The translations under genes were made by a program, and so were the position numbers. A DNA stretch of 64,000 nucleotides from Clostridiaceae bacterium (GTDB taxonomy: Bacteria > Bacillota > Clostridia > DSM-8532): positions 1 to 64,000 of the forward strand of contig JAAYNA010000107.1 of the NCBI GenBank assembly GCA_012521105.1, written 5' to 3'. Positions 1 through 47,178 of this stretch are shown piece after piece (the stretch's first letter is position 1; the number at the start of each line of letters is the position of its first letter). A model generated the notes under the pieces. The model made no database searches, was not told the DNA's origin, and saw nothing but the letters and a program-made list of their open reading frames with translations.

Positions 1-115
1 AGGGTTTGACTTTCTCCCATATCTCCATTGAAATTGTAAATTTTTCATTTGCCTTATCAAAATTTTCTTCTATAATGGCTTTCTCTAAATCAGAAAGAGA
101 TTCTGAAAAACCCAT
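1..115 (-). pseudogene. DUF4363-like protein, partial
   Basis: Reading leftward from an ATG at 115 gives 38 codons that run off the window edge. The peptide (starting MGFSESLSDLEKAI and ending WEKVKP) resembles the DUF4363 family, which has a helical pattern of L..LE.AI...A...W.K.KP. Family members normally carry an N-terminal membrane helix before this stretch. Here an in-frame stop lies at 134-136 and no good ribosome binding site precedes the ATG, so the gene is either N-terminally truncated or broken by a frameshift. The rest lies outside the window. The family match is from memory of the pattern only. Confidence 0.4.
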
Positions 116-25758: not shown

Positions 25759-25915
25759 TTATAAAGGAGTGAAAACCCTAAAAAATGGTGTTCATATACC
25801 ATTGATTAACAGAAGATTTTCCTTTAATATCCTACATAATCCGAAAAATTCTTTATCGCTTCTGTGTTTTCGCTTTAGATAATTTACGGTGTTTTCATTA
25901 AGGAGGATATTGTTC

Positions 25916-28769: not shown

Positions 28770-28903
28770 CAGGAATCTGTTTCTCACAGCAGATGGCAGG
28801 TCAAAATCCCCCCGCTTCACTAATTTTACAGTTGTTTAACAAAAATGAACTCCTGGTTTAAATAAAGAATAATTTCAATAAGATGAAGAAAGGTGGATGC
28901 TTA

Positions 28904-29944
28904 ATGTCAGTAAATGTTGAAATGCTTGAGCTTGCTGATAAGGTTGTTGGTATGCTTATAAATAACGAGGAAAGGGAAGGGTTGTATGATCACCTGCATA
29001 TGGATAACTGGGAGTGGCCTACCGGTGTAGCCCTTTACAGCATGTTCAAGGTATACAAAAGAACAGGCGATAAAAAGTATCTTGACTACCTGGTTAACTG
29101 GTATGATATACAACTTTCAAAGCCTGCCCCACACAAAAATGTAAATACCGTTTGTCCTGCCCTTACCATGTTATGTCTTTATGAAGAAACAAAAAATGAA
29201 AAGTATCTCCCATATATAAATATGTGGGCTGAGTGGGCAATGAATGAAATGCCTCGCACGCAGTATGGCGGTATGCAGCATATGACTGTTTTGAACCGCC
29301 ATTATCAGCAGCTTTGGGCCGATACTCTTTTTATGACTGTTTTGTTCCTTTTAAAAGCAGGAAAAGTATTTGGGAAGGAAGAATATGTAGATGAAGCAAA
29401 ATACCAGTTTCTGTTCCATATTAAATATCTGCAGGATAAAAAAACCGGCCTGTTCTACCATGGATGGACTTTTGACGGCAAACACAATTTTGCTGAAGCA
29501 TTCTGGGCAAGGGGAAACAGCTGGTTTACATCGGGCGCTGTAGAATTCCTGGATATATATGGAGTTGATGATGCGGTTTCAAGGCTTATAAAAAATTCAT
29601 GGATTGATCAGGTAAAAGAGTTGGTTAAATATCAGGGCGAGAATGGTCTGTTTAATACCCTTGTCGATATTGAAGAGACTTATTATGAAACATCTGCAAC
29701 TGCCGGTATAGCTTATGGAATATTGAAGGGTGTGCGCCTTGGAATAATTGGCGATGAATATTTAGAGTACGGAAGAAAAGCAGCTCACGCTGTTATTTCT
29801 AAAATAGATGAAAATGGCATGGTTCAGGGTGTATCCTATGGAACTGGCATGGGTAGGGATTTGGAGCACTACAAAAAAATACCCATTGCTCCCACAGCTT
29901 ATGGACAGGGTTTAACCTTTTTAATGCTGACTGAGCTTATATAG
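28904..29944 (+). CDS. unsaturated rhamnogalacturonyl hydrolase GH105 (YteR/YesR-like)
   Basis: 346 residues, a single GH105 barrel. The catalytic Asp is Asp140 in QLWADTLFMTVLFL. The motif FYHGWTFDGKHNFAEAFWARGNSW matches the family, with Ser in place of the usual Gly in WARGNGW. The ATG at 28904 has AAAGGTGGA before it; an ATG at 28883 is in frame but poorly placed. It is the second GH105 of the cluster and lacks the N-terminal beta domain of the first, so the two may differ in chain length preference. Confidence 0.9.
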   Translation: MSVNVEMLELADKVVGMLINNEEREGLYDHLHMDNWEWPTGVALYSMFKVYKRTGDKKYLDYLVNWYDIQLSKPAPHKNVNTVCPALTMLCLYEETKNEKYLPYINMWAEWAMNEMPRTQYGGMQHMTVLNRHYQQLWADTLFMTVLFLLKAGKVFGKEEYVDEAKYQFLFHIKYLQDKKTGLFYHGWTFDGKHNFAEAFWARGNSWFTSGAVEFLDIYGVDDAVSRLIKNSWIDQVKELVKYQGENGLFNTLVDIEETYYETSATAGIAYGILKGVRLGIIGDEYLEYGRKAAHAVISKIDENGMVQGVSYGTGMGRDLEHYKKIPIAPTAYGQGLTFLMLTELI

Positions 29945-30043
29945 TAAGTAATTTATTCTGATATATCTGAGGGACGAACCAAAAATATGCGGCATCATAG
30001 GATAAATAGAGTCCATATTTTTATAAAAGAAAGGATGCTGCAT

Positions 30044-30682
30044 ATGTACGTTTTACCCGGAATGCATAAATTACCGCCGCTGCCATACCCGTATGATGCT
30101 TTGGAACCGGTAATCGGCGCTGAGACATTAAAGATACATCACAACAAGCACCACAAAAGTTATGTGGATGGTTTAAACAGGGCCGAATTGTATCTTGTAG
30201 AGGCACGCAAGACAAATGATATAGAGTATATCAAATACTGGGAAAATGAACTGGCTTTTAATGGTTCAGGACATATCCTTCACAGCCTATACTGGACCAT
30301 AATGGCACCTGTTGGCAGGGGGGGTCAGCCCGGTCCGAGAACTGTTTACCATGTTAATCAATATTTTGGCAGCTTAGAAGCTATGAAAAACCAGTTCATT
30401 CTTGCCAGCGAAAATGTAGAGGGGTCAGGGTGGGGTATTTTAACCTGGCAGCCTACATGGGGAAGGCTGGAGATATTACAGGCAGAAAAACATCAGAATT
30501 TAACCGAATGGAGTGGAATTCCCATTCTGGTATGCGATGTCTGGGAGCACGCATATTATCTGGACTACCAGAACAGGCGCTCAGACTATGTAAATTCATG
30601 GTGGCAACTGATAAACTGGAATGAGGTGGAAAGAAGACTTATAGATGCTATGAATGGCCGGGTTACACTTGTACAGGACTAA
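30044..30682 (+). CDS. iron/manganese superoxide dismutase
   Basis: 212 residues. The four metal ligands are visible: His32 in IHHNKHHKSY, His80 in GHILHSLYW, and Asp165 and His169 in DVWEHAYYLDYQNRR. The middle GGQPG and the C-terminal LINWNEVE also fit the family. It detoxifies superoxide in the cytoplasm. ATG 30044 with AAAGGATG upstream gives a normal length; an in-frame start at 29987 would add an atypical tail. The gene follows the pectin genes on the same strand but has its own strong terminator, and its link to sugar use is probably incidental. Fe or Mn cannot be decided by eye. Confidence 0.92.
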   Translation: MYVLPGMHKLPPLPYPYDALEPVIGAETLKIHHNKHHKSYVDGLNRAELYLVEARKTNDIEYIKYWENELAFNGSGHILHSLYWTIMAPVGRGGQPGPRTVYHVNQYFGSLEAMKNQFILASENVEGSGWGILTWQPTWGRLEILQAEKHQNLTEWSGIPILVCDVWEHAYYLDYQNRRSDYVNSWWQLINWNEVERRLIDAMNGRVTLVQD

Positions 30683-30758
30683 ATTATGATATTTTGTTTT
30701 CTTGTATACTTGCTAGTTTATAACCGGTAATTTCCGGTCCTGTTTCTCAAACATGAAA

Positions 30759-30794
30759 AAGCTTGAAAATCCTTTAGTAGTGGTTTTCAAGCTT
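30759..30794 (+). terminator. terminator after superoxide dismutase
   Basis: AAGCTTGAAAATC (30759-30771) pairs with GGTTTTCAAGCTT (30782-30794), 13 pairs with one wobble and a 10-nt loop, followed by CATTAATTTAATG. A smaller ACCGG/CCGGT hairpin lies at 30723-30738. The rest of the 744-bp gap to 31427 is AT-rich and holds the promoter at 31116. Confidence 0.65.
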
Positions 30795-31115
30795 CATTAA
30801 TTTAATGAGAAGTGTTATCAGTTGTTCGCAGGCAGAAACCAGGTTCAAAATACCAACAGAAAATAGGTGAAATAATGCAGGCAGGCCTTGTTTTTGTGGG
30901 TTACTGAAATGTGCCTGCTAAATAAAAATTTGGGTGCCGCTTAAAACCAGTTTAAATAGTTTAACCTTAAAATTTCCCATCAGTTGAGTAATACGATAAA
31001 TACATAATGTTAAAACTTATAAAATAACTGTTAATCACGTGAGTTGAGAACTAAATGGTCTATTACATTTAATTAAAACATAAGCTGATATTAATTAAAT
31101 TGTTAAGCAGATAAA

Positions 31116-31144
31116 TTGACATATTTAACAATATCAATTACAAT
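31116..31144 (+). promoter_or_regulatory. sigma-A promoter of the GH140 gene
   Basis: TTGACA (31116-31121), 17 nt, TACAAT (31139-31144). The region 31103-31126 is 21/24 identical to 40775-40798 in front of the DUF5060 glycosidase gene, including the -35 box and the bases before it, which suggests a common activator. The transcript would have a leader of about 275 nt. Confidence 0.75.
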
Positions 31145-31426
31145 AAATTTATAAAATTTAGTAAAGAATAAACTGAACTCAAGAATGGATTCGGTGACAC
31201 TTCTTATAGAGGGTCTGCAAGGACAATAATTTTGAATGAATTATTTTGCACTCAGGCAAAAAACACATGCCGGAGGGCATCTGTTTCCCATAACAGGCGG
31301 GGAAATAGTTAGTCATTATGCTTCGACAAGAAAAGGATTTTTATTTCAAATCTTTGAAATTACTAAAAATAACATAAATGGGAAGTTTACCTACGGGTAT
31401 ATGTTAGATCATATGAGGTGAATACT

Positions 31427-32770
31427 ATGGAAAGAATTATATTGTCAGAAAACAAAAGATACCTGATGTATGAAAGCCGAAAACCTTTCTTCTGGTTAGG
31501 AGATACTGCGTGGCTGTTGTTTCAGAAACTTAGTCCTGATGAAGCAGAGAAGTACATAAAAGACAGGCAGAGTAAGGGTTTTAATGTAATTCAGGCAGTA
31601 TTAATACATCAGGAAACCAATACAAATGTATATGGTGAACCGGCATTGTATGATGGAAGCATTACTAAAACATTTGTGAACGGGAAACCGGATTTGAAAA
31701 ATACGAACAGTTACTGGAACCATGTAGACAAAGTTATAGATATGGCCGAAAAAGCGGGTTTATATATGGGGTTACTTCCTGTTTGGGGCAGTATGGTTGA
31801 AAACCGGCACTTAAATAAGGATAATGTTGTTGAATACGGAACATGGCTGGCAGAGCATTTTAAAAACAGGAAAAATATAATCTGGATTCTTGGGGGAGAC
31901 ATCAAGGGTGACAAGCACTATGACATATGGAATACTTTAGGAAACACAATAAAATCCATTGACCCGGATTCTTTAATGACATTCCATCCATTTGGAAGAA
32001 CAAATTCTTCTGATTGGTTTCATAATGCTCCCTGGCTCGACTTTAACATGTTTCAGTCGGGCCACAGACGTTATAATCAAAAAATGAAAGCCGAAGAGGA
32101 AGATGATATCAGATTACAGATAGGGCAGGACAACTGGCGCTATGTAGTGAATTATTATCAAAAAACGCCGGTTAAACCTACTTTGGACGGTGAACCCTCT
32201 TATGAGAGTATTCCCCAGGGGTTGCACGATACGACACAGCCGTACTGGGATGCAAACGATGTGCGCAGATATGCCTATTGGTCTGTTTTTGCAGGTTCAT
32301 GCGGACATACTTATGGCCATAATGCAGTGATGCAGATGCATAGACCTGGTGACGGAGAAGGCAGTTATGGAGTGCGTGAATACTGGTATGATGCTTTGGA
32401 TGCCGAAGGTGCCCGGCAGATGCGTCATTTGAAAGAATTGATGCTGTCAGTTCCTTATTTTGAAAGGATCCCCGATCAGTCTGTAATTGATGGCGATGCA
32501 GGGGAAAAATATGAGCGTTTGCTGGCAACAAGAGGATTAAGTTACATTTTTGTTTATACCTTTACCGGAAGAAGTATTCGTTTAAAGATGGGAAAAATAA
32601 CAGGGGACAAGGTATGTGCCAGGTGGTTTGATCCTAAAACCGGTAAAATACAAAAGGCAGGAGAATATGATAATAAAGGAGTACTGGAATTTACGCCACC
32701 TGAAAACAAGGATTCCTGGCCCGATTATGTATTAATCATTACAGATAGTGAAAAAGATTACTTTGCATAA
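31427..32770 (+). CDS. GH140/DUF4038 apiosidase-like glycoside hydrolase
   Basis: 447 residues. The N-terminus (PFFWLGDTAWLLFQKLSPDE) and the TIM-barrel motifs identify the apiosidase-like DUF4038 catalytic domain of GH140, first described in Bacteroides enzymes acting on rhamnogalacturonan II. Candidate catalytic residues are Asp158 (ILGGDIKGD) and Glu256 (LDGEPSYE). The C-terminal 90 residues resemble the putative collagen-binding domain that usually follows. There is no signal peptide, unlike many homologues, so it may act on imported fragments. ATG 31427 has GAGGTG before it; GTG 31418 is an alternative. Downstream genes fit use of the released branched sugar. Confidence 0.82.
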   Translation: MERIILSENKRYLMYESRKPFFWLGDTAWLLFQKLSPDEAEKYIKDRQSKGFNVIQAVLIHQETNTNVYGEPALYDGSITKTFVNGKPDLKNTNSYWNHVDKVIDMAEKAGLYMGLLPVWGSMVENRHLNKDNVVEYGTWLAEHFKNRKNIIWILGGDIKGDKHYDIWNTLGNTIKSIDPDSLMTFHPFGRTNSSDWFHNAPWLDFNMFQSGHRRYNQKMKAEEEDDIRLQIGQDNWRYVVNYYQKTPVKPTLDGEPSYESIPQGLHDTTQPYWDANDVRRYAYWSVFAGSCGHTYGHNAVMQMHRPGDGEGSYGVREYWYDALDAEGARQMRHLKELMLSVPYFERIPDQSVIDGDAGEKYERLLATRGLSYIFVYTFTGRSIRLKMGKITGDKVCARWFDPKTGKIQKAGEYDNKGVLEFTPPENKDSWPDYVLIITDSEKDYFA

Positions 32771-35245: not shown

Positions 35246-35275
35246 TTGAATTAATATTTGCAGCCTGTCTATAAT
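35246..35275 (+). promoter_or_regulatory. promoter of the first importer operon
   Basis: TTGAAT (35246-35251), 18 nt, TATAAT (35270-35275). It lies 83 bp before the binding-protein start, in the gap after the YesN-type regulator gene. Confidence 0.55.
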
Positions 35276-35357
35276 GGCATTGCTGAACGATATGCTTTCG
35301 CATACTGTTTGGCTCGGAAAATTACCGACACAATTATTATTGTTAAGGAGGATTTGT

Positions 35358-37088
35358 ATGAAAAAAACTCTAATCACTATTCTGACCGTGTTGCTGATAG
35401 CTGCCATGCTAACAGGCTGCGGACAGACATCCGGAGGTTCAACACCTGCAACTCCGGCTCCGGCTTCAAGCCAGGGAACTCAATCAACAGGTGATAGCGA
35501 CAGTATTTACAATCCGGTAGGTACATACCCGATTGTAAAGGAAAGAATCAAACTTACAATTCTTGCACCGGCAGATGGTGAGTATGACAGAAATGAAAAC
35601 TTATTTACCAAGGAACTCGAAGAAAAAATGAATATTGATATCGAGTTTACAGTTGCACAGCCAGGTGCTTTTAAAGAAAAAATGAACTTAATGTTTGCAT
35701 CGGGTGACTTAACAGATATTGTTGCAACAGGTGCAGGCGGTACCGACAGAATGGACAAGGCCACAGAAGCACTATTGGGTTCTCAGGGATTAATTATCCC
35801 GTTGAATGAATACTTTGATACTGTATCAATTGGTTATAAAGAGGCTTTTGAACAGCTGCCCGGTCTGCGTGAGTTTATTACTACTCCTGACGGTAATATT
35901 TACTCGTTGCCTAACGTAGATGGAAGTTTACATGTTCAGTATACAAATAAATTGTGGATTAACACTGTTTGGCTGGATAATCTTGGGCTTGACATGCCAA
36001 CAACAACCGAAGAGTTTTATCAGGTGCTGAAGGCCTTCAAAGAGATGGATGCAAATGGCAATGGTGATCCGAATGATGAAATACCATTGTCTTCAGTTAA
36101 ATCCGGAACTGGAGTTCAATTTGACGGCTTCCTTATGAATCCGTTCATATTGACACCTCATCCCGAAAGAATGTGGGTTGATAACGGTAAGGTTATCTAT
36201 AGTCCAATTGAAGAAGGATACAGGGAAGGTCTTGCTTACCTGCATAGATTATATAAGGAAGGGTTAATCTATCCCGAATCATTCACACAGGACATGAAAG
36301 CTCAGGTAAATCTTAATGAAAATGGTGACGTACCTGTTATCGGTGCTTTCCTGGCATTGCGCCCGGGATATGCTAATGATTTGAGCACATTACCAAACAG
36401 TAAAAAGTGGGAGCAATATCAATCATTACCACCGCTGAAGGGACCTGATGGAGAAGCTATAGCTGCATGGAATCCGTATGCAATGTATCAGACGGGTATT
36501 GCGTCCATAACAAAAGACTGTAAATATCCGGAAGCTGCATTCAGGCTCATTGACTACATTGCTACACCGGAAGGCACATTGCGTACTGCAGAGGGTATAG
36601 AGGGTAATGGCTGGAGAAAAGCAACTGCTGACGAAAAAGGTATGGATGGGCGTCCCGCAGTATTTACTCAGATTACCGAAGGAAAAATAGAAAACTCCGG
36701 ATGGGGTCAGCTCTGCGGTCTTGTAAGAACTCCTGATTTTGTTCTTTCATACGCTTATCCGCAGGATCCTTATGCAGATGATGTTGTACCTTTGATAGGA
36801 AGGCAGATTGTTCTCTACAAGGGTTCACTTGAACATGAAAAAGTTGCACAGCCTTTAGAATCAGTACTTCCCGAGCTTTATTACTCTCAGGAGCAAATTG
36901 ATGAACTGGCGCTGTTGAAAACAACAATTAACGATTATGTTAATTCTTCGGTAGTACGTTTTATTACCGGTGATCTTGATGTTGAAAAGGATTGGGAAAG
37001 CTATCTGAAACAAATGAAGGATCTTGGCGTTGAGCGTTACATTGAAATAGTACAGTCGGCATACGACGTAAGCAGCTTTAAGAAATAA
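35358..37088 (+). CDS. ABC sugar transporter substrate-binding lipoprotein (LplA/YtcQ-like)
   Basis: 576 residues. The lipoprotein signal ends at LLIAAMLTGC, followed by a Ser/Thr/Pro-rich linker and a type I sugar-binding domain. The loop MDANGNGDPNDEIPL is a calcium-binding-like motif common in this binding-protein family. The size and the two downstream permeases match the oligosaccharide importers that carry rhamnogalacturonan products in Bacillus (YtcQ-YteP-YtcP) and relatives. AAGGAGG precedes ATG 35358; an in-frame start at 35274 would spoil the signal peptide. Ligand probably a plant cell-wall oligosaccharide. Confidence 0.9.
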   Translation: MKKTLITILTVLLIAAMLTGCGQTSGGSTPATPAPASSQGTQSTGDSDSIYNPVGTYPIVKERIKLTILAPADGEYDRNENLFTKELEEKMNIDIEFTVAQPGAFKEKMNLMFASGDLTDIVATGAGGTDRMDKATEALLGSQGLIIPLNEYFDTVSIGYKEAFEQLPGLREFITTPDGNIYSLPNVDGSLHVQYTNKLWINTVWLDNLGLDMPTTTEEFYQVLKAFKEMDANGNGDPNDEIPLSSVKSGTGVQFDGFLMNPFILTPHPERMWVDNGKVIYSPIEEGYREGLAYLHRLYKEGLIYPESFTQDMKAQVNLNENGDVPVIGAFLALRPGYANDLSTLPNSKKWEQYQSLPPLKGPDGEAIAAWNPYAMYQTGIASITKDCKYPEAAFRLIDYIATPEGTLRTAEGIEGNGWRKATADEKGMDGRPAVFTQITEGKIENSGWGQLCGLVRTPDFVLSYAYPQDPYADDVVPLIGRQIVLYKGSLEHEKVAQPLESVLPELYYSQEQIDELALLKTTINDYVNSSVVRFITGDLDVEKDWESYLKQMKDLGVERYIEIVQSAYDVSSFKK

Positions 37089-37159
37089 TGATGATTATCA
37101 TTTAGCTGTTGAAAAATATCTTCATTTGAAAATAGTGGACAGATACAAAACTCACTGTT

Positions 37160-37195
37160 ACAGATTGAGTCCACTTTGAAGTGGACTCAATCTGT
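37160..37195 (+). repeat. 17-bp perfect inverted repeat between binding protein and permease genes
   Basis: ACAGATTGAGTCCACTT and its exact complement flank two bases (37177-37178). The tail is ATATTTAAC, so termination would be partial. Such hairpins after binding-protein genes usually keep their mRNA more abundant than that of the permeases, by attenuation or by blocking 3' exonucleases. Confidence 0.7.
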
Positions 37196-37268
37196 ATATT
37201 TAACAAACGAAGTATAACAGGTGATATACCATTTAATTTGAACCAGATAATTTAGGGAGGGCCTCATT

Positions 37269-38204
37269 TTGAAGTTTAGGAAGGCAGAACTAAAAAAAGA
37301 TGTGAATCGTATAAGGAAAGGTATAATCAGACACTGGCAGCTGTATCTTCTTGTATTGGCGCCAATCACATATTTGGTTATTTTTAAGTACATTCCGTTG
37401 ATCGGATCGGTTATAGCCTTTAAGGATTATAGCTTTGTTAAAGGGGTTTTTGGCAGCGATTGGGTGGGATTAAAGCATTTTATAAGATTTTTCAAATCTC
37501 CCCAGTTCAAAACCTTAATGCTTAATACTATAGGATTATCGTTATATCAAATTATAGCAGGAGTCGCTCCACCAATTCTGTTAGCGATTGCGTTAAACTA
37601 TGTACGAAGCAAAATATTTGGGAAAACCGTTCAAATGGTAACGTATATGCCATATTTTATTTCAACGGTTTTAGTAGTGGGAATCCTGTCACAGATCCTG
37701 TCGTTGGGCGGGCCTGTAAACCAGATTATTAAAGCTATGGGAGTAGAGCCTGTTCATTTCATGGGCGACCCGAAGCTATTCAGAACTATTTATGTATTTT
37801 CTGGTATCTGGCAAAATAACGGATATAATGCTGTTATTTATTTGGCAGCATTGGCTGCAATAAGCCCGGAACTGTATGAAGCAGCTATAATTGACGGTGC
37901 ATCCATCTGGAAAAGGATATACTACATTGACATTCCCAGTATACTTCCTACAGCAGTCATATTACTGATTCTTGCCTGTGGAAGAATCCTGTCAATAGGT
38001 TATGAAAAGGTTTTGCTTATGCAGAATAATTTGAATTTGCAGACATCTGATATTATATCGACATATGTATACAGAGTGGGGCTAATTTCAATGCAATACA
38101 GCTATTCCACTGCCATTGGCTTGTTCCAGTCTGTTGTTTCATTTATACTTCTGGTTTTAGTTAATAAAGTATCAAGATCATTAAATGAAACAAGCTTGTG
38201 GTAA
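37269..38204 (+). CDS. ABC sugar transporter permease (LplB/YteP-like)
   Basis: 311 residues, six membrane helices. The EAA-type cytoplasmic loop reads LYEAAIIDGASIWKRIYYIDIPSI and contacts the ATPase. The N-terminus HWQLYLLVLAPITYL matches the LplB/YteP group. The TTG start at 37269 has AGGGAGGG upstream. It overlaps the reading frame region of the next permease gene closely, and both belong to the importer started by the binding protein at 35358. No ATPase gene is present, so a shared MsmX-type ATPase is expected. Confidence 0.9.
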   Translation: MKFRKAELKKDVNRIRKGIIRHWQLYLLVLAPITYLVIFKYIPLIGSVIAFKDYSFVKGVFGSDWVGLKHFIRFFKSPQFKTLMLNTIGLSLYQIIAGVAPPILLAIALNYVRSKIFGKTVQMVTYMPYFISTVLVVGILSQILSLGGPVNQIIKAMGVEPVHFMGDPKLFRTIYVFSGIWQNNGYNAVIYLAALAAISPELYEAAIIDGASIWKRIYYIDIPSILPTAVILLILACGRILSIGYEKVLLMQNNLNLQTSDIISTYVYRVGLISMQYSYSTAIGLFQSVVSFILLVLVNKVSRSLNETSLW

Positions 38205-38217
38205 GGGGGTATGGACG

Positions 38218-39117
38218 ATGGAAAAAGCAAAAACAAAAAAGAGTTTATCAGATAATTTGTTCTTTATTGTAAACGGACTGTTTTTATTAATTTGTTTTAT
38301 TGTTGTGGCTTTTCCAATATTGAATGTGGTTAGCCAGTCGGTAAGTTCACCAAAAGCTGTTATCGCCGGAAAGGTATTCCTGTGGCCCGTTGATTTTAAC
38401 TTAAATGCATATAAACAGATTTTTCAAAACAAACTGTTGATGACAGGATATAAAAATTCCTTTTTGTATACCCTTGTCGGAACATTTTTTAATATAGTAA
38501 TGACGGTGGCAATTGCATATCCGCTTTCACGCAAGGATTTTATAGGACGTAACGTAATTACAGGAATATTTGTGTTTACAATGATTTTTAATGCTCCATT
38601 GATACCAACATATCTGAACATTAAAAATCTTGGACTTTTGGATACATTCTGGGTAATGGTAATACCTGGTGCCATTTCGGTTTACAATATGATTATTGCC
38701 AGGACTTTTTTCCAAAACACTATTCCAACAGAGCTGTTTGAAGCATCAGAACTGGACGGGGCAAGTGATATGCAGGTATTAACAAATGTAGTTTTACCTT
38801 TATCTAAACCTATATTGGCAGTTCTGGTACTATATTATGCTGTTGGGCACTGGAATGCATATTTTGACGGTATGATTTACCTGAACACCGAAATGAAATT
38901 CCCGTTACAGGTTGTTTTGCGTAATATTTTGGCAAGTGTCGAAATGATTGAGCAAATGGTCAGTTCAATAACTGTTCAGGATGCTCAAAGGCTTGCATAC
39001 GTGGAAGTAATGAAATACGCAATTATTGTTTTTGGAAGTATTCCGGTACTGTTATTATATCCCTTTGTACAGAAATATTTTGTAAAAGGTGTTATGATAG
39101 GGTCTGTAAAGGGGTAA
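38218..39117 (+). CDS. ABC sugar transporter permease (LplC/YtcP-like)
   Basis: 299 residues, six membrane helices, with the ATPase-contact loop LFEASELDGASDMQVLTNVVLP. ATG 38218 follows AAGGGGG and is 13 bp after the previous stop; an in-frame ATG at 38185 lies inside the previous gene and lacks spacing. The protein ends with the KG motif typical of this family (MIGSVKG). It completes the first importer. Confidence 0.9.
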   Translation: MEKAKTKKSLSDNLFFIVNGLFLLICFIVVAFPILNVVSQSVSSPKAVIAGKVFLWPVDFNLNAYKQIFQNKLLMTGYKNSFLYTLVGTFFNIVMTVAIAYPLSRKDFIGRNVITGIFVFTMIFNAPLIPTYLNIKNLGLLDTFWVMVIPGAISVYNMIIARTFFQNTIPTELFEASELDGASDMQVLTNVVLPLSKPILAVLVLYYAVGHWNAYFDGMIYLNTEMKFPLQVVLRNILASVEMIEQMVSSITVQDAQRLAYVEVMKYAIIVFGSIPVLLLYPFVQKYFVKGVMIGSVKG

Positions 39118-39236
39118 AATTCTGTATAATGAATAAATTTAAAAATAAGATTTCATAGTGTTATGGAACTTAAAGTAATAAACTGAGAACAGGATAGGAA
39201 TATGCACATAAATAATATCATTCGGGGGGATGAAAA

Positions 39237-40472
39237 ATGTCGGTTCATTCAACTAAAGGAGCTTTGGCAGGAGAACGTTATCGGGTTATTGTTTCTACAG
39301 ATATAGGAGGTAGTGATCCCGACGATTTTCAGTCAATGGTACACTACCTGCTTTATTCCGACGTATTCGATACAGAAAGTCTGATTTCTTCACCATGGGG
39401 TGCGGGTACAGTACAGGATATTCTGGAAGTAATCGATCAGTATGAAATTGATTACCCTAAATTACGCTCTCATTCTTCGGGTTATCCAACCCCTGAATAT
39501 CTGCGCTCCATTACAAAACAGGGTGTCATTGATACGGCTCCATTCAAAGGATACAGTAAAGCAACAGAAGGATCGGACTGGATTATAAAATGTGCCAGAA
39601 AAGATGATCCACGCCCTTTGTACATACTGATTTGGGGGTTGCTGGAGGATCTCGCTCAAGCTCTTCATGATGCACCGGATATCAAAGATAAACTGAGGGT
39701 TTATTATATCGCCGGTCCAAATAAAAAATGGGGTTTGAATGCTTACGAATATATTCGTGAAAACTTTCCCGATTTATGGATTATTGAAAACAATTCAACG
39801 TACAGAGGTTGGTTTGTTGGTGGAAATCAGGAACAGGACTTGGGTAATAAAACCTTCGTAACTAACCATGTCTCAGGACATGGAGCGTTGGGGAATTATT
39901 TTGCGAAGCATCTGGATGGAGTTATTAAAATGGGCGATACACCTTCGGTTGCGTATCTGCTGAAGGGGACTCCCGAATGTCCCGAGAAACAGTCATGGGG
40001 CGGATCCTTTGTTAAAGTTGGAAACCGGCCAAAATCCGTATACCGGGGGCTTACCGATCAAAAAGACACAGTAGAGGTATTTGGTGTACTCGAACTGATT
40101 TTAAACGGTCCGCATATTGAAAAGAGTCCGGATGAACCTGCTTTTTCCTTGATTGTCCAGGAACAGGAGTTTTATGGTTACTACTGCGGGAATGGAGAGT
40201 ACAGGGTTCGTTATATGCCAAAAACAACAGGATTATGGAGTTATACGACGAAAAGTGATATCCCTGAATTGAATGGACTGTCGGGTATGTTCACCTGCAT
40301 AGAAGAAACAGAGGAAGGACGAAAAGGTGATGAGAACCGTTATCCAAACTGGTGGTCCGACATTATTGATGCAAAGTATGCGGAATACGAGCACAAGGGT
40401 GCAAAAACTGTGAGTACATGGCGGGAGGAGTTTTTACGTGATTTTCAGGTCAGGTTGGATCGGTGCTTATAG
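39237..40472 (+). CDS. DUF1593 nucleoside-hydrolase-like protein with inserted DUF5060-like domain
   Basis: 411 residues, no signal peptide. Residues 15-250 show the nucleoside-hydrolase-like DUF1593 fold, with the Asp-rich metal motif STDIGGSDPDD and FVTNHVSGHGALGN. The family's C-terminal ending (WWSDIID, then WREEFLRDFQVRLD) is present at 371-411. Between them, about residues 272-356, lies a stretch that resembles DUF5060 (VEVFGVLELILNGP and GEYRVRYMPKTTGLWSYTT), the beta domain that starts the next gene product. GGGGGGATG precedes the ATG. The protein likely acts on a glycoside; its substrate is unknown. Confidence 0.75.
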   Translation: MSVHSTKGALAGERYRVIVSTDIGGSDPDDFQSMVHYLLYSDVFDTESLISSPWGAGTVQDILEVIDQYEIDYPKLRSHSSGYPTPEYLRSITKQGVIDTAPFKGYSKATEGSDWIIKCARKDDPRPLYILIWGLLEDLAQALHDAPDIKDKLRVYYIAGPNKKWGLNAYEYIRENFPDLWIIENNSTYRGWFVGGNQEQDLGNKTFVTNHVSGHGALGNYFAKHLDGVIKMGDTPSVAYLLKGTPECPEKQSWGGSFVKVGNRPKSVYRGLTDQKDTVEVFGVLELILNGPHIEKSPDEPAFSLIVQEQEFYGYYCGNGEYRVRYMPKTTGLWSYTTKSDIPELNGLSGMFTCIEETEEGRKGDENRYPNWWSDIIDAKYAEYEHKGAKTVSTWREEFLRDFQVRLDRCL

Positions 40473-40603
40473 TTGCCGGCCATAAGGTATCACGAATGTC
40501 ACATAGAAACGGGGAAAGCACCATATATATACACAACCTCTGAATTTGGGAAATTTACAGTTTTTTATTATATTAAAACTTAGTTTAAGATTTTAAGCAA
40601 CGG

Positions 40604-40662
40604 AGATTCCACGTAAAATGAGTAATATCATTTTAATATTAAATTCAAGTGGAATCTTTTCA
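40604..40662 (+). terminator. terminator after the DUF1593 gene
   Basis: AGATTCCAC (40604-40612) pairs with GTGGAATCT (40649-40657), enclosing a second hairpin AAAATGA/TCATTTT at 40615-40634. It is followed by TTTCATTTTC. The remaining 200 bp before the next gene are very AT-rich and hold the promoter at 40788. Confidence 0.6.
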
Positions 40663-40787
40663 TTTTCAACATAAACCGGCAATAATGGGCAACGCCTTGT
40701 TTACAGCCAAAAACGAGCAATTGTATCCAAGCATTGGCAGACAACTAAAATAATATTTAAATCAATTAAAAAACTTAAGTAGATTTA

Positions 40788-40816
40788 TTGACATATTTTA
40801 TAAATAATTATATAAT
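40788..40816 (+). promoter_or_regulatory. consensus sigma-A promoter of the apiose-type operon
   Basis: TTGACA (40788-40793), 17 nt, TATAAT (40811-40816): full consensus. The 24 bp at 40775-40798 match 31103-31126 upstream of the GH140 gene in 21 positions. A perfect promoter in a sugar operon suggests it is controlled by repression or by the shared upstream element. Confidence 0.85.
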
Positions 40817-40873
40817 TTATTTATATTTATTAGTTAAATTATAAAATATCTGTTATTGAGGGGGGTATGGAAA

Positions 40874-42391
40874 TTGAGTTCAACTGTAGAAAAATGGGGA
40901 ATTTTTGAGCTACAACTGAGTACAAAAAGGAACTATGCTAATCCGTTTACAGATGTTAAACTGAAAGCCTGTTTTTATAATTCAAACCATAAAAAAGTTG
41001 TATATGGTTTTTATGATGGAGATGGAATTTACAAGATTCGTTTTATGCCCGAGCTTGAAGGTGAGTACAAATATACTGTCTATTCAAATGATCCGGACAT
41101 GAATAATATTTCAGGAGTATTTTCAGTTACTCCGCCTTCAGAAAATAACCACGGGCCTGTTAAAGTGACAGGCGAACATTTTACATATGCAGATGGCACA
41201 CCGTTTTTTGTTATGGGAACAACTGCATATGTTTGGCATCACCGACCGGCAGAAATACGGGAAAGGACATTACGCAGCTTTTCAAAGTATGGTTTTAATA
41301 AAATAAGAATGCTTTTTTTTCCAAAACATTACACAGGTAAATTTAATGCAGTGGATGTAAGTTATGAACCCCCTTGTTACCCATTTGAAGGAGAACCGAA
41401 AAATTTTGATTTTACTCGTCCGAATCCCGAGTATTTCCGTTTATTTGAAGAAAGAGTTAAAGAATTAGGTGAGCTTGGAATAGAGGCAGATGTGATTCTG
41501 TTTCATCCATATGATTTTGGCCACTGGGATATTGATGTTAAAATGGACGAAGAAGATGCGCTTCTTTATCTCAGATATATCATAAACAGGTTGTCAGCAT
41601 TTCGTAATGTCTGGTGGAGTCTTGCAAATGAGTATGATATAGGCTATGACGAAGATAACCCGGACAGGTTTATACTAAGTAAGACTCGCAGAAATTGGGA
41701 TGTAATTGGTGAATATATAAAAGCAAATGATCCGTATGGTCATCCCAGATCATGTCATAATATTTCTTATGGATGGATATACCCCGATCGTCCATGGATG
41801 ACCCATGTGTCTTATCAGCATCCTGATACTTACACCCTGATGCTGGAACTTAAAAGAGATTATAAAAAACCCGTTATTAATGATGAATATCAATATGAAG
41901 GTAATCTTCCTGACAGTTGGGGCAATTCGTCAGCTGAATTAACTGTATTGCGCCATTGGCTTTCTGTTATGGCAGGAGGGTATGCCAGCCACGGTGAAGC
42001 TTTCATAATAGACCGAAATAACCGCGACATATTCTGGTCTTATGGTGGAGATATGGTTGGAGGCAGTGCACCCTGTCTGAAATTTATGAAGGAAATTGTA
42101 ATGTCTTGTCCATGGCATGAAATGGAAAGAGATTATGTAAATACTGACGGTCATAATTATTTTTCCCTGTCTAAAGGAAATGAGTTTTATTTACTGTTTT
42201 TCAAGAATGGAATGAAAAATAAAAATTTGTGGATTGGTTCAAAAGAAGACCCTCAGGCTGATTATATATACGATGCAGTCTTTTATGATGTAAAAAACTG
42301 TAAGGTTATAAAATCGTGCAGAATAAATACAAATACCGATACGATTGAAATTACCGACTGGACAGCAGTTACGCTTAAGCTTGTTAAATGA
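40874..42391 (+). CDS. DUF5060-DUF4038/DUF5605 glycoside hydrolase
   Basis: 505 residues. An N-terminal DUF5060 beta domain (VEKWGIFELQL to SGVFSV, about 1-95) is followed by a TIM barrel of the DUF4038 (apiosidase-like) superfamily, and then a C-terminal beta domain of the DUF5605 type. Two glutamates sit where clan GH-A enzymes have their acid/base and nucleophile: Glu253 in WWSLANEYD and Glu338 in VINDEYQYEG. The TTG start at 40874 is favoured by GAGGGGGG upstream; there is no signal peptide. It heads the operon that continues with the transketolase genes and probably releases a sugar from imported side-chain fragments. Confidence 0.78.
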   Translation: MSSTVEKWGIFELQLSTKRNYANPFTDVKLKACFYNSNHKKVVYGFYDGDGIYKIRFMPELEGEYKYTVYSNDPDMNNISGVFSVTPPSENNHGPVKVTGEHFTYADGTPFFVMGTTAYVWHHRPAEIRERTLRSFSKYGFNKIRMLFFPKHYTGKFNAVDVSYEPPCYPFEGEPKNFDFTRPNPEYFRLFEERVKELGELGIEADVILFHPYDFGHWDIDVKMDEEDALLYLRYIINRLSAFRNVWWSLANEYDIGYDEDNPDRFILSKTRRNWDVIGEYIKANDPYGHPRSCHNISYGWIYPDRPWMTHVSYQHPDTYTLMLELKRDYKKPVINDEYQYEGNLPDSWGNSSAELTVLRHWLSVMAGGYASHGEAFIIDRNNRDIFWSYGGDMVGGSAPCLKFMKEIVMSCPWHEMERDYVNTDGHNYFSLSKGNEFYLLFFKNGMKNKNLWIGSKEDPQADYIYDAVFYDVKNCKVIKSCRINTNTDTIEITDWTAVTLKLVK

Positions 42392-42473
42392 TACTTTATG
42401 AAGATTGGTGCAAAATTCCAATTTATACTTGTCATTTTTTGTAGGGGGGCAAATATTTTAATGGAGGGGAAAT

Positions 42474-43304
42474 ATGAATACTTGTAAACACCTTATAAAA
42501 AAAGCAGCACAGATTCGCAGAGATATAGTGGACATAGTTTACCGGTCAAGTGCCGGACATATAGGAGGTTCACTTTCTGAAACTGATATTCTTGTTGCAC
42601 TTTACTATAAAGTAATGAATATTGATCCTGAAAATCCCGAGTGGCCTGAGAGGGACAGATTTATACTAAGCAAGGGACATTCAATTGATGCTTATTATTG
42701 TGTGCTTGCAGACAGAGGTTTTTTTGATAAGAAAGAACTTCTGACATACTCTCAATTTGGGTCAAAATTTATTGGTCATCCGAACAGGCAGGTACCGGGG
42801 GTGGAAATGAACACCGGAGCATTAGGGCACGGGTTATCAATTGGGGTTGGAATGGCTCTTGCAGCCAAAATGGATAAAAAGGATTACCGGGTGTTTGTTT
42901 TAATGGGAGACGGAGAATTGGCTGAAGGTTCTGTATGGGAGGCAGCGATGGCTGCATCCAATTACAAGCTGGATAATCTTGTGGCTATTATAGACCGGAA
43001 TGGCTTGCAGATAAGTGGAAAAACAGAAGAGGTAATGGCTATTGAACCTTTGGAGGAAAAATGGAAAAGCTTTGGATGGAATGTTTCTGTGATAGATGGT
43101 CATGATATTCCTTCAATTTGCAGTGCTCTTTCGGAAGACAAAAAAGTGCTGAACGTACCTTCCCTGATAATAGCTGAAACAATAAAGGGAAAAGGAGTAT
43201 CCTTTATGGAAAATGAGCCCGGGTGGCACCATGGGGTTATGAGTCCCGATGAATATAAAAGGGCCTGTGAAGAACTGGACAAAATGCTGGAGGTGCTTTC
43301 ATGA
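42474..43304 (+). CDS. split transketolase, N-terminal (thiamine-diphosphate) subunit
   Basis: 276 residues. It contains the transketolase N-domain motifs: SAGHIGGSLSETDILVALYY, SKGHS, GALGHGLSIGVGMA, and the ThDP/metal motif MGDGELAEGSVWEAAMAASN. TGGAGGGG precedes the ATG. It overlaps the C-terminal subunit gene by 4 bp. Split transketolases of this size occur in dedicated sugar operons. Next to an FGGY kinase, a FucI/AraA-type isomerase and apiosidase-like enzymes, the best fit is apulose-4-phosphate transketolase subunit A (AptA). Classic pentose-phosphate transketolase activity is the alternative. Confidence 0.88.
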   Translation: MNTCKHLIKKAAQIRRDIVDIVYRSSAGHIGGSLSETDILVALYYKVMNIDPENPEWPERDRFILSKGHSIDAYYCVLADRGFFDKKELLTYSQFGSKFIGHPNRQVPGVEMNTGALGHGLSIGVGMALAAKMDKKDYRVFVLMGDGELAEGSVWEAAMAASNYKLDNLVAIIDRNGLQISGKTEEVMAIEPLEEKWKSFGWNVSVIDGHDIPSICSALSEDKKVLNVPSLIIAETIKGKGVSFMENEPGWHHGVMSPDEYKRACEELDKMLEVLS

Positions 43305-44251
43305 ATACAATACATAACAGGCAGGTTGTTTGTGAAACTCTTATGGAAATTGCAAAAGAAGATAGGGATATAGTAGTATTGTGCAGTGATTCAAGAGGGT
43401 CTGCTTCAATGAAACCTTTTGCAGAAAAGTATCCCGAACAGTTTATTGAAACAGGAATAGCTGAACAGAATATTGTTGGGATTGCAGCAGGCCTTGCCGC
43501 ATCCGGAAAGAAACCGTTTATAGCTTCACCGGCCTGTTTTTTGACTACCAGATCTGCAGAACAGATAAAAGTGGATGTATCTTACTCAAACACAAATGTA
43601 AAGCTTCTTGGAATAAGTGCCGGAATCAGTTATGGTGCTCTTGGAATGTCTCACCATTCACTTCAGGATATAGCCCTGTTGAGAGCAATTCCTAATATTT
43701 TGATTGTGGTCCCTGCAGACAGATTTGAAGCTCGGCTTGTAACTGAAGCGATTGTCGGTTACAACGGTCCGGCCTATATGCGCATAGGGCGAAATCCTGT
43801 AGAAGATGTTTACACATCCGGTAATTACGAGTTTCAGCTTGGTAAGGCAATTACCCTTAGAGATGGTGATTCTCTTTCCATAATAACTTTTGGAGAAACA
43901 GTAAAAATTGCACTGGATGCTGCAGAATTGATGTCTAACCAAGGTATAAACTGCAGGGTAATAAATATGCACACCATCAAACCCATTGATAAGGAGTGCA
44001 TTATTAAGGCTGCAAAAGAAACGGGTGCCATAATAACAATTGAAGAACACAGCATTTTAAGTGGTTTTGGTGCAGCAGTTGCAGAAGTGGTTGTCCAGAA
44101 TTATCCTGTACCAATGAAAATAATGGGTATACCAGATGAGCCTGCAATACCTGGTAAATCAAAGGAAGTGTTTGCCCATTATGGAATTAGCCCCGAGAAT
44201 TTGTGCCTGGAAGCTGAAAAATTAATAAATAAGAAAAGAAATGGCTGGTGA
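43301..44251 (+). CDS. split transketolase, C-terminal (pyrimidine-binding) subunit
   Basis: 316 residues. The pyrimidine-binding domain has FIETGIAEQNIVGIAAGLA with the catalytic Glu, plus SPACFLTTRSAEQIKVDVSY. The C-terminal domain (INMHTIKPIDKECI, TIEEHSILSGFG) completes the enzyme. It starts at ATGA overlapping the stop of the N-terminal subunit, which ensures equal synthesis. In this context it may be subunit B of an apulose-4-phosphate transketolase, giving xylulose 5-phosphate and dihydroxyacetone phosphate; that step is inferred from the neighbours. Confidence 0.88.
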   Translation: MNTIHNRQVVCETLMEIAKEDRDIVVLCSDSRGSASMKPFAEKYPEQFIETGIAEQNIVGIAAGLAASGKKPFIASPACFLTTRSAEQIKVDVSYSNTNVKLLGISAGISYGALGMSHHSLQDIALLRAIPNILIVVPADRFEARLVTEAIVGYNGPAYMRIGRNPVEDVYTSGNYEFQLGKAITLRDGDSLSIITFGETVKIALDAAELMSNQGINCRVINMHTIKPIDKECIIKAAKETGAIITIEEHSILSGFGAAVAEVVVQNYPVPMKIMGIPDEPAIPGKSKEVFAHYGISPENLCLEAEKLINKKRNGW

Positions 44252-44257
44252 AACAAA

Positions 44258-45751
44258 ATGGCGGAAAAGTACATTCTTGCTATAGATCAGTCCACATCCG
44301 GAACAAAAGCTATATTATTTACCAGGGATTGCACCGTACATCACCGGGTTACAATTGCTCATACCCAGCATTATCCAAAATCTGAATGGGTTGAGCATGA
44401 TCCTGAAGAAATAAATCAGAATATAAAGATGGCTATATCAAAAGTTATGCAAGAAGGAGATGCATCCTGGAGTGAAATAGCTTCTATAGCAGTTACAAAT
44501 CAGAGAGAAACAGGAATGGTCTGGGACAGTGCAACAGGAAAGCCTGTTTATAATGCTGTTGTTTGGCAATGTCCCAGGGCAAAGGAACAATGTGATTTAT
44601 TAGCACAGGAATCTGAAATTACCGAATATATACATAAAAAGACGGGTCTTCATCTCTCGCCGTATTTTACTGCACCTAAAATTCAATGGATTTTAAATAA
44701 TGTACCGGGTACGAAAGAGAAAGCCTTATCAGGCGGTTTAAAGTTTGGTACGATGGATTCCTGGGTTATATGGAATCTTACCGGCGGAAAAGTACATGCG
44801 ACTGATTTTTCCAATGCCAGCAGAACACTTCTGATGGACTTAGAGGAACTTAAGTGGGATCAGAAATTATTGGATATCTTTGAAATTCCGCATCAAATGA
44901 TGCCCGAAATAAAGCCTTCGGACAGCATATTTGGATTTACCGAAGGAGACTCTGTTATTCCAAAAGGCATACCAATAAGCGGTGTAATGGGTGATTCCCA
45001 TGCTGCTCTTTTCGGGCAAAACTGTTTTAGCATTGGGATGACAAAAGCTACTTACGGAACAGGTTCATCAGTAATGATGAATATAGGTGAAAAACCTGTA
45101 TATTCCGACAGTGGGATTGTTACGTCTGTTGGCTGGATAACTTCTACCAATAAGGTATATGTCCTTGAAGGAAATGTTAATTGCAGTGGAAAAACCATAG
45201 AATGGCTTGTTGACGCAGGGTTTATTCCAAATCCAAAGGAATCAGGAAAGATTGCCTCAAAAATGAGTGATAATGGCGGAGTGTATTTTGTCCCTGCTTT
45301 TACAGGCCTTGGAGCTCCATATTGGGACAATTCGGCAAAAGCAATTGTTACCGGTCTTACATTAGGAGCAAAAATAGAAAATATCGTTCGGGCTGCAGAG
45401 GAATCAATTGTATTTCAGATCACTGATATTTTAGATTTAATGCAAAGCGATTCAGGTATTAATCTTAAAGAATTGCGGGTTGATGGCGGCGCAACAGGAG
45501 ATTCGTTCCTGATGCAATTCCAGTCAGACATTGCAAATACAAAGGTAATAGTTCCCAAAGTCGAAGAATTGTCGGCGTTGGGTAGTGCAAACATGGCAGG
45601 GCTTGCAACAGGATTTTGGAAATGCAGAAGCGAATTGGAACAAAAGCGCTCGGTTTTGGCAGAATTTGTGCCTCAAATGGAAGAAGAAAAAAGAATAATG
45701 CATAAAAAGGGCTGGCATGATGCAATCAAGCGCGCTCTTACTAATAAATAG
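44258..45751 (+). CDS. FGGY family sugar kinase (glycerol kinase-like), candidate apulose kinase
   Basis: 497 residues, full length for FGGY kinases. Motifs are very close to glycerol kinase: LAIDQSTSGTKAILF, TNQRETGMVWD, AVVWQCPRAKEQ, GTMDSWVIWNLTGG, GDSHAALFGQ, GLGAPYW and RVDGGATGDSFLMQFQSD. By similarity alone it would be called GlpK. However, it lies 6 bp after a split transketolase and 23 bp before a sugar isomerase, with no glycerol genes around. Known D-apulose kinases belong to this family, so a ketose kinase role fits better. GGTGA precedes the ATG. Confidence 0.85.
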   Translation: MAEKYILAIDQSTSGTKAILFTRDCTVHHRVTIAHTQHYPKSEWVEHDPEEINQNIKMAISKVMQEGDASWSEIASIAVTNQRETGMVWDSATGKPVYNAVVWQCPRAKEQCDLLAQESEITEYIHKKTGLHLSPYFTAPKIQWILNNVPGTKEKALSGGLKFGTMDSWVIWNLTGGKVHATDFSNASRTLLMDLEELKWDQKLLDIFEIPHQMMPEIKPSDSIFGFTEGDSVIPKGIPISGVMGDSHAALFGQNCFSIGMTKATYGTGSSVMMNIGEKPVYSDSGIVTSVGWITSTNKVYVLEGNVNCSGKTIEWLVDAGFIPNPKESGKIASKMSDNGGVYFVPAFTGLGAPYWDNSAKAIVTGLTLGAKIENIVRAAEESIVFQITDILDLMQSDSGINLKELRVDGGATGDSFLMQFQSDIANTKVIVPKVEELSALGSANMAGLATGFWKCRSELEQKRSVLAEFVPQMEEEKRIMHKKGWHDAIKRALTNK

Positions 45752-45774: not shown

Positions 45775-47178
45775 ATGTCTGTATTTGGTGTGATAGTTTC
45801 AACAAGAGGTTTTTTCCCAGGCTGGCTTGCACAGGAAGCCAGAAAGCAAATTACAAGAAAACTTGAAAGTCTGGGGCACGAATATGTTATTGTTGATGAA
45901 AATTCAATGCCTTATGGTGCGGTACAGACTTATGAACAGGCGAAAGCCTGTGCAGAACTGTTTCAAGAAAACCGTGACAGAATTGAAGGCATAATTGTCA
46001 TCCTTCCAAATTTCGGAGATGAAATCGGTGTTGTCAATGCAATTTATGAGTCGAAGCTAAATGTGCCCGTCCTTATCCAAGCATGTGACGATGATTTGGA
46101 GTTACTTGATGTTGATCACAGACGCGACGCATTTTGCGGTAAATTATCGGTATGTAACAATTTAAGGCAGTATGGTATTCCTTTTACATTAACAAAATTG
46201 CATACCTGCAGTATTGAAAGTGATGAGTTTACAGAGGATATAAAACGTTTTGAAAAATTATGCAATACTGTTAATAACTTAAGAAAAGCGCGTATCCTTG
46301 CAGTTGGCACAAGGCCTGGGCCATTCCAGACTGTTCGTTTTTCAGAGAAACTTCTTCAGAAGTATGGAATATCAGTTTTGGTTGAAGATATAGGAAACGT
46401 AATTTCACGGGCAAATGAGATTAACGATCCGACAGAACTTGAGAAGGCAATTCTGGAAATACGGGAGTATGCAAATGTACCCGAAGACACACCAATGGAA
46501 AAGGTTGAAAAATTAGCCCGGTTTAAGATAGCCCTTGAGGAAGCTGTTAATAATTATGATGCAGACTGTGCTGCAGTTCAATGCTGGAATGTGCTGCAGA
46601 ATCAGTTTGGTTGTGCTGCATGTCTGGCTATGAGTATGTTAGGTGATAAGGGTGTACCTCATGCCTGTGAAATGGATGTTATGGGTGCACTTACAATGTA
46701 TGCGCTCTCATCTGCATCAGGAGCTGCTGCCGGGTATCTGGACTGGAATAACAATTACGGAAATGACAGAAATACCTGTATTAATTTCCATTGTTCAAAT
46801 TATCCTGCTTCCTTTATGGGATGTAAGCCTTCGGTTGGCGTTCTGGATATACTGGGCACACAGCTTGGCTATGAAAACTGTTTTGGTGCGTGTGTGGGTA
46901 AAGTAGAACCCGGACCAATGACATTCTGTAAAATATCTACAGATGATGTCAATGGCAAAATCCGCGCTTATGTCGGGGAAGGAGAGTTTTTAGACAAAGA
47001 GGTTAATACCTTTGGCGGTCCGGCAGTGTGCAGCGTACCAAATCTGCAGGAATTAATGCATGTTTTGTGCGAGGAAGGATATGAACACCATGTATCAATG
47101 GTTCGCGGGCATGTAGCAGATATTATTGAGGAAGCTTTAACTAAATACCTGGGATGGGAAGTATACAGGCATCGTTAA
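45775..47178 (+). CDS. L-fucose/L-arabinose isomerase-fold protein, candidate D-apiose isomerase
   Basis: 467 residues. The two N-terminal Rossmann-like halves and the C-terminal barrel match the FucI/AraA family. Metal-binding candidates are Glu299 in HACEMDVMGAL and Asp323 in AGYLDWNNN, 24 residues apart as in E. coli FucI, with a C-terminal His among 438-446 (EHHVSMVRGH). AAAGGTGG precedes the ATG. It ends the operon glycosidase-transketolase-kinase, so its product should be the ketose that is phosphorylated and split. Given the GH140-type enzymes, D-apiose to D-apulose is my best guess; L-rhamnose/L-fucose-type aldoses are alternatives. Confidence 0.8.
   Translation: MSVFGVIVSTRGFFPGWLAQEARKQITRKLESLGHEYVIVDENSMPYGAVQTYEQAKACAELFQENRDRIEGIIVILPNFGDEIGVVNAIYESKLNVPVLIQACDDDLELLDVDHRRDAFCGKLSVCNNLRQYGIPFTLTKLHTCSIESDEFTEDIKRFEKLCNTVNNLRKARILAVGTRPGPFQTVRFSEKLLQKYGISVLVEDIGNVISRANEINDPTELEKAILEIREYANVPEDTPMEKVEKLARFKIALEEAVNNYDADCAAVQCWNVLQNQFGCAACLAMSMLGDKGVPHACEMDVMGALTMYALSSASGAAAGYLDWNNNYGNDRNTCINFHCSNYPASFMGCKPSVGVLDILGTQLGYENCFGACVGKVEPGPMTFCKISTDDVNGKIRAYVGEGEFLDKEVNTFGGPAVCSVPNLQELMHVLCEEGYEHHVSMVRGHVADIIEEALTKYLGWEVYRHR

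Follow-up and report, generated by a model that had tools for sequence, protein, structure and literature searches.

Sde_0182 of Saccharophagus degradans (2yhg) consists of a nucleoside hydrolase (NH)-like core with a terminal helix and an extra β-sandwich in the same chain, and it has a carbohydrate context. Sde_0182 is reported to be inactive on nucleosides and presumed to bind furanose, and the surface through which nucleoside hydrolases dimerise is covered in it by the β-sandwich (PMC8910321). The same paper describes nucleoside hydrolases as having a DxDxxxDD fingerprint and, preceding the last Asp, a His, Trp or Cys that acts as the proton donor in several of these enzymes, and it describes XopQ/XOO4466, inactive NH-like proteins that carry no DUF5060, as ADP-ribose-binding effector. 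RihA, YeiK and IU-NH use nucleoside substrates and have no insert in this fold. DUF5060 itself is seen in BVU_0362 of Bacteroides vulgatus (4n0r), where it is the N-terminal domain on an apiosidase-like TIM barrel.

We analyzed a 64,000-nucleotide stretch of a Clostridiaceae contig (hereafter, the window) in which these two families meet in one protein. The gene at 39237..40472, on the forward strand like the other window features given below with two-dot coordinates, encodes P0001, a DUF1593 (PF07632) protein of 411 aa with no evident signal peptide. The PF07632 profile (Sde182_NH-like) matched residues 16–258 over its whole length (1–268; 214.9 bits, cut-off 26.8), which corresponds to an NH-like core at 39282..40010. 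Inserted behind it is a DUF5060 β-sandwich at about residues 267–370 (40035..40346). The DUF5060 profile PF16586 matched residues 279–340 (E = 1.9e-12) with 47.7 bits, well over the cut-off of 27.2, so the likeness is far past chance, and the first-pass annotation was right to call a DUF5060-like domain in a DUF1593 protein. The 2yhg superposition and conservation place the resumed end of the NH-like fold at residues 372–411 (40350..40469), with the terminal helix WREEFLRDF. Unlike RihA, YeiK and IU-NH, P0001 scored only 13 bits against the nucleoside hydrolase profile PF01156, under the gathering cut-off of 34.2. Pfam found no PF21027 (Sde0182_C) match in P0001, whose chain stops at the terminal helix; it thus differs from Sde_0182 in having no C-terminal domain, which is common in PF07632 proteins but not required. 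The GC content of the insert (about 0.44) was inside the range of its own gene (0.40–0.46), and no tandem repeats were found in window 39000–42500.

When solved structures were searched with phmmer, P0001 matched 2yhg over residues 11–260 and weakly again over 380–409, and the spacer between the two matching parts was about 20 residues in 2yhg vs about 120 in P0001. Residues 309–357 matched 4n0r, a DUF5060 glycosidase. Matches of CFA/I fimbrial chains to residues 229–260 were set aside because their score adds up three weak hits to the repeated units of a trimeric fusion. An AlphaFold2 model of P0001, built from an 81-sequence alignment, had a mean pLDDT of 94.7 and a pTM of 0.93; for this model, Foldseek ranked 2yhg first and 4n0r second (over 89 columns). 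With VIA-align 2, model residues 13..411 were superposed on residues 523..819 of 2yhg (265 aligned, rmsd 2.3, Z 32.0). Many nucleoside hydrolases aligned at Z of about 18–22 with ranges reaching residues 408–411: RihA, YeiK and IU-NH shared the overall fold, including the terminal helix, at about 20–22, and XopQ/XOO4466 shared the NH-like fold at about 18. Because the 2yhg superposition covers both flanks of the insert, the DUF1593 fold does resume in the last helix, as the annotation had proposed. Modelled alone, the insert (residues 263–360, 98 residues; pLDDT 95.6) superposed on 4n0r 23..110 with a Z of 11.3 (rmsd 2.2, 84 aligned, 32% identity), followed by the next chain at Z 7.3, so that the predicted structure of the segment is indeed that of DUF5060. 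The models thus put a DUF5060 β-sandwich inside the DUF1593 fold, ahead of its last helix. Its limits, given earlier as residues 272–356, have to be moved: set from insertless relatives, they are about 267–370 (about 104 residues), and the empty site reads GNRP-insert-NWWSD in the window protein vs EGR-PDWYVD in the insertless sister L113. In Sde_0182, by contrast, the sandwich comes after the terminal helix and belongs to another family (Sde0182_C), and there is no DUF5060 insert.

We investigated the distribution of this architecture with an insert-bearing query, and the best 80 of 344 relatives were kept. Other DUF1593 proteins with the insert were found in these 80 fetched loci across many phyla, including Clostridia, Omnitrophota, Latescibacterota, Planctomycetota, Verrucomicrobia, Bacteroidota, Acidobacteria, Massilia and others. 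The aligned ranges of the relatives spanned the insert, with the exception of L052, whose reading frame stops early and which was omitted from alignment A1. PF07632 was matched by 81/81 aligned members; at E 1e-3, Pfam saw DUF5060 in only 20/81, and the remaining members carry a putative DUF5060 called from alignment in the same columns. Further DUF5060 Pfam scores were 38.2 bits in L149 and 34.0 bits in L148. The column spacing from the WGG motif to the terminal Trp was 132–142 residues in 88/88 insert-bearing sequences, a count that is partly by construction because the gathering query carried the insert, vs 33–41 in 8 insertless sisters and 22–64 in 13 other paralogues. In DUF1593 paralogues from the same loci, the WGG motif lies within a few tens of residues of the terminal helix. 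Two pattern matches occurred in viral contigs, neither encoding a relative.

Phylum samples, in which up to 6 candidates were scored per genome and which include a centre genome chosen for having the insert, gave a less biased count: 5/45 A1 matches were insert-bearing in Bacteroidota (296 genomes; the phylum of L068) and 1/25 in Planctomycetota (294 genomes; the phylum of L043). The insert is not a normal part of all DUF1593 proteins, and the insert-bearing form is a minority of them. An insertless sister group was found among relatives of the L017 genome (L113, which equals L116, and L117 to L122); the six others share 57–66% identity with L113 across almost the entire query, and one more sister, L146, came from the Planctomycetota sample.

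The core tree (107 sequences) placed the insertless clade, itself supported at bootstrap 100, among insert-bearing sequences, with supports of 92, 63 and 95 along the path. This topology favors a history in which the whole subfamily descends from an insert-bearing ancestor and the insertless sister clade dropped the insert, so that this clade would not represent the pre-insertion state. However, monophyly of the insert-bearing sequences was not rejected when a full tree search was used (AU p = 0.34), and adding five deeper members in a second tree gave an unstable result, with supports of 17–67 at the branches that matter; the paralogue L149 12771–13868 was placed inside the insertless clade in that tree. 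A first AU rejection (p = 0.021) was discarded, as the constrained tree in that test had been built by fast searching. Given the full-search AU result, we do not claim loss of the insert and hold an ancestral insert to be slightly short of an even bet. It concerns history only and is compatible with the functional explanation preferred below.

The genes around and fused to the insert-bearing ones were linked to pectin. Six insert-bearing proteins were fused to domains of pectin or furanoside breakdown: to pectic acid lyase PL10 (L041, L058 and L033), to GH127 (L062 and L070) and, in L031, to the end of a pectinesterase (partial CE8). Beside the Pfam names we use CAZy-type labels that we take to be equivalent (GH140-like, GH105, GH78, PL10 and CE8). 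L041 and L076 were also fused to a canonical DUF1593 + Sde0182_C protein, so that insert-bearing DUF1593, insertless DUF1593 and Sde0182_C stand in one chain (L041:3016-6657 and L076:7926-10562); these single-chain fusions suggest that insert-bearing and insertless proteins function together as partners. In the fetched stretches, 36/80 loci had one or more insertless paralogues (37 with the fused L076). Among 101 directly adjacent same-strand ORFs, 24 matched PF07632, 21 Sde0182_C, 6 PL10 and 4 GH127, vs 1 PF07632, 1 GH127 and at most 1 PL10 among 101 distant ORFs (>5 kb; random draws of ≥150 aa from 204), PL10 not being among the 25 families listed for the distant set. This comparison omits L012, L035, L047, L049, L053 and L073 (6/80), which had no main ORF after the overlap filter, and both paralogues and neighbours were counted per locus, with contig ends limiting the neighbours that are visible. 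The gene for the insertless sister L113 is flanked by genes for an acetyl esterase and a rhamnogalacturonan lyase. Taken together, the fusions, the enrichment among adjacent ORFs and the surroundings of L113 indicate a pectin context in several phyla. We conclude that insert-bearing DUF1593 proteins form an old, widespread subfamily of pectin-consuming bacteria.

Two further gene groups were observed. In an Opitutaceae locus (L064:7278-16857), a row of genes encodes two insert-bearing DUF1593 proteins, one insertless DUF1593 protein and three DUF5060 proteins. In the window itself, an upstream pectin island at 25889–32770 encodes two proteins of the Glyco_hydro_88 family, a GDSL esterase resembling pectin acetylesterase PaeY, and an apiosidase-like protein that carries Collagen_bind_2.

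Directly upstream of P0001, a sugar ABC importer is encoded by genes for a binding protein and two permeases (35274..39117). The next gene downstream (40856..42391) starts with TTG at 40856 in the ORF list and encodes DUF5060, from near its first residues, followed by an apiosidase-like TIM barrel; its product is a close relative of BVU_0362. The gap between the two genes (40473–40855) is low in GC (down to 0.24–0.27) and is perhaps a separate promoter. Relatives of this glycosidase are common on Rhizobium plasmids (81/100 plasmid records with a match), and in at least one record the relative adjoins a sugar permease. Further downstream are a split transketolase of two subunits (42474..44251; 49% and 36% identical to AptA and AptB of E. 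coli SE15), an FGGY kinase resembling glycerol kinase (44258..45751; 37% identical to AplK of E. coli SE15) and a sugar isomerase of the fucose-isomerase C-domain family (45775..47178). In E. coli SE15, an apiose-growing strain, the AptA/AptB/AplK genes belong to a D-apiose use cluster (PMC13001218); the D-apiose transketolase pathway also includes an isomerase, ApsI.

The split transketolase, kinase and isomerase would fit a pentose freed from pectin, with D-apiose as one candidate; this fits rather than proves, and at 36–49% identity to the E. coli genes the D-apiose link of the window cluster is a weak one. The kinase also passed the cut-off of the NCBIfam glycerol kinase model, and a genome search found no second close homologue of full length, so that it could be the glycerol kinase of the cell. 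The first transketolase subunit has two further copies in the genome, which are 54% and 43% identical. Near insert-bearing genes, relatives of the isomerase were present in 8/80 loci, of either transketolase subunit in 8/80 and of the kinase in 5/80. Such loci include Opitutaceae, Bryobacteraceae, Planctomycetales and Bacteroidota; most loci were without pathway genes.

The putative active site was compared among 34 insert-bearing, 8 insertless and 12 canonical sequences (L149 12771–13868 was omitted). Asp22, Asp29, Asp30 and Asp234 were kept in all three groups and are expected to hold a metal, a likeness to the acidic metal-site residues of RihA, YeiK and IU-NH; a profile comparison with RihA/B/C was weak (probability 7.6) and was used just for the correspondence of Asp22 and Asp234. 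P0001 reads STDIGGSDPDD, a longer spacing than in the DxDxxxDD fingerprint. Unlike RihA, YeiK and IU-NH, it has no His before the last Asp: this residue is Gly233 in 81/81 members. Since Gly233 replaces the His/Trp of nucleoside hydrolases, nucleosides are unlikely substrates, and the protein either relies on a different acid for catalysis or may have no catalytic activity. Gly160, Pro161, Lys163, Trp165, Glu184, Asn186, Tyr189 and Phe193 were an invariant signature of the insert-bearing form, including a stretch that reads Gly160-Pro-Asn-Lys. Judged by position in the fold family, these residues probably line the pocket, and because most of the signature is altered in the insertless sisters, the insert and one specific putative pocket occur together. 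Conservation was lower in the insert than in the core (2.07 vs 1.01 bits of mean column entropy); its nearly fixed residues are D277, F282, E286, R325, P328, S340, G347 and G350. Judged by eye, P0001 and most other Clostridia-type and Latescibacterota members begin directly with the domain, whereas many Bacteroidota, Verrucomicrobia and Planctomycetota members have hydrophobic or lipobox-like N-termini. This suggests that the former work inside the cell and the latter outside.

Based on these results, we read the insert-bearing DUF1593 proteins as pectin-side-chain furanosidases or furanose binders with a built-in β-sandwich; their substrate and role are what we infer from fold, residues and gene context. 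In this explanation, the NH-like pocket would bind a metal and a furanose, and the subfamily would act on a furanosyl side chain of pectin, with D-apiose or L-arabinose as the likeliest sugar. By analogy, the inserted sandwich would play a role like that of the separate sandwich of Sde_0182, covering the NH dimerisation face, and it perhaps forms part of the substrate cleft. Along the chain, one helix separates the insertion point from the position of the Sde_0182 sandwich, and we propose this equivalent role. P0001 would act intracellularly, on small pectic glycosides that the ABC importer takes up, and the pentose released would pass to the isomerase, the kinase and the split transketolase. 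For this explanation as a whole, including a sandwich that does not derive from the adjacent gene, we put the probability at roughly 0.6.

The proteins might instead not be enzymes but binders or helpers for pectin oligosaccharides, holding sugar with both the NH-like pocket and DUF5060 and handing it over to lyases and glycosidases that are fused to them or encoded nearby. The fusions to active-enzyme families and the presence of neither His nor Trp before the last Asp speak for such a role, as does the NH-like domain of Sde_0182, which is reported to be inactive on nucleosides and presumed to bind furanose (PMC8910321). However, the strict conservation of the acidic pocket and the polar signature of the subfamily exceed what a binding protein needs, and the window protein is probably cytosolic and stands alone. 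We regard a pure helper as somewhat unlikely. The furanosidase reading can also be extended: these proteins could be undescribed pectin furanosidases on the NH fold that cleave O-linked apiofuranose or arabinofuranose, in which the DUF5060 sandwich replaced oligomerisation and which have an adjacent or fused insertless DUF1593 partner in many bacteria. In this extended form we consider it unlikely and offer it as speculation.

The origin of the insert was investigated with a maximum likelihood tree of 81 inserts and 17 glycosidase copies of DUF5060, in which 4n0r was absent and from which weak-scoring glycosidase candidates (L035, L079 and L102) and duplicates from the window genus (L001, L003, L004, L087 and L088) were omitted. 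One branch with a bootstrap of 100 parted all 17 glycosidase DUF5060s from all 81 inserts, placing the window insert and the neighbour's copy on opposite sides. The glycosidase copies, the type to which BVU_0362 belongs, are thus a separate clade. The window insert was 30% identical to the neighbour's DUF5060, which ranked 12/17 among the glycosidase copies: 11/16 other glycosidase DUF5060s, all from other genomes, were closer to it. In fact, it was 83% identical to the insert of L005, 60% to that of L006 and 47–51% to those of several other insert-bearing proteins. Its median identity was 30% to other inserts vs 32% to glycosidase copies; as these medians are alike, the argument against copying rests on the clade support and the close insert relatives.

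The first-pass annotation had proposed that the neighbouring glycosidase gene was the source of a copy now inside the DUF1593 gene, and although the genome's only two DUF5060 domains found lie in these adjacent genes and, in the unrelated Opitutaceae lineage of L064, insert-bearing DUF1593 genes are also near DUF5060 glycosidases, the identity ranks, the bootstrap of 100 and the same architecture in 80 loci of many phyla contradict recent copying between the two window genes and make the proposal highly improbable. As the sole copies of the genome adjoin, and the arrangement is seen again in L064, there is possibly a common reason for one pathway to use the same module. The inserts may stem from an ancient transfer from some DUF5060 glycosidase.

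No description of the combined architecture of DUF1593 and a DUF5060 insert was found in the available portions of the open-licence literature, and nothing on DUF1593 was found among the listed matches for nucleoside hydrolase-like proteins and pectin. New here is a DUF1593 subfamily linked to pectin and of predicted function, which is marked by an old insertion of DUF5060. Neither DUF1593 nor DUF5060 has an assigned function, and the fusions and neighbour enrichment point to a concrete candidate substrate class. Additionally, the insertless sister clade offers a natural deletion for gauging what the inserted domain contributes. Should the proteins prove active, the nucleoside hydrolase fold would gain an O-glycosidase activity on plant cell-wall sugars.
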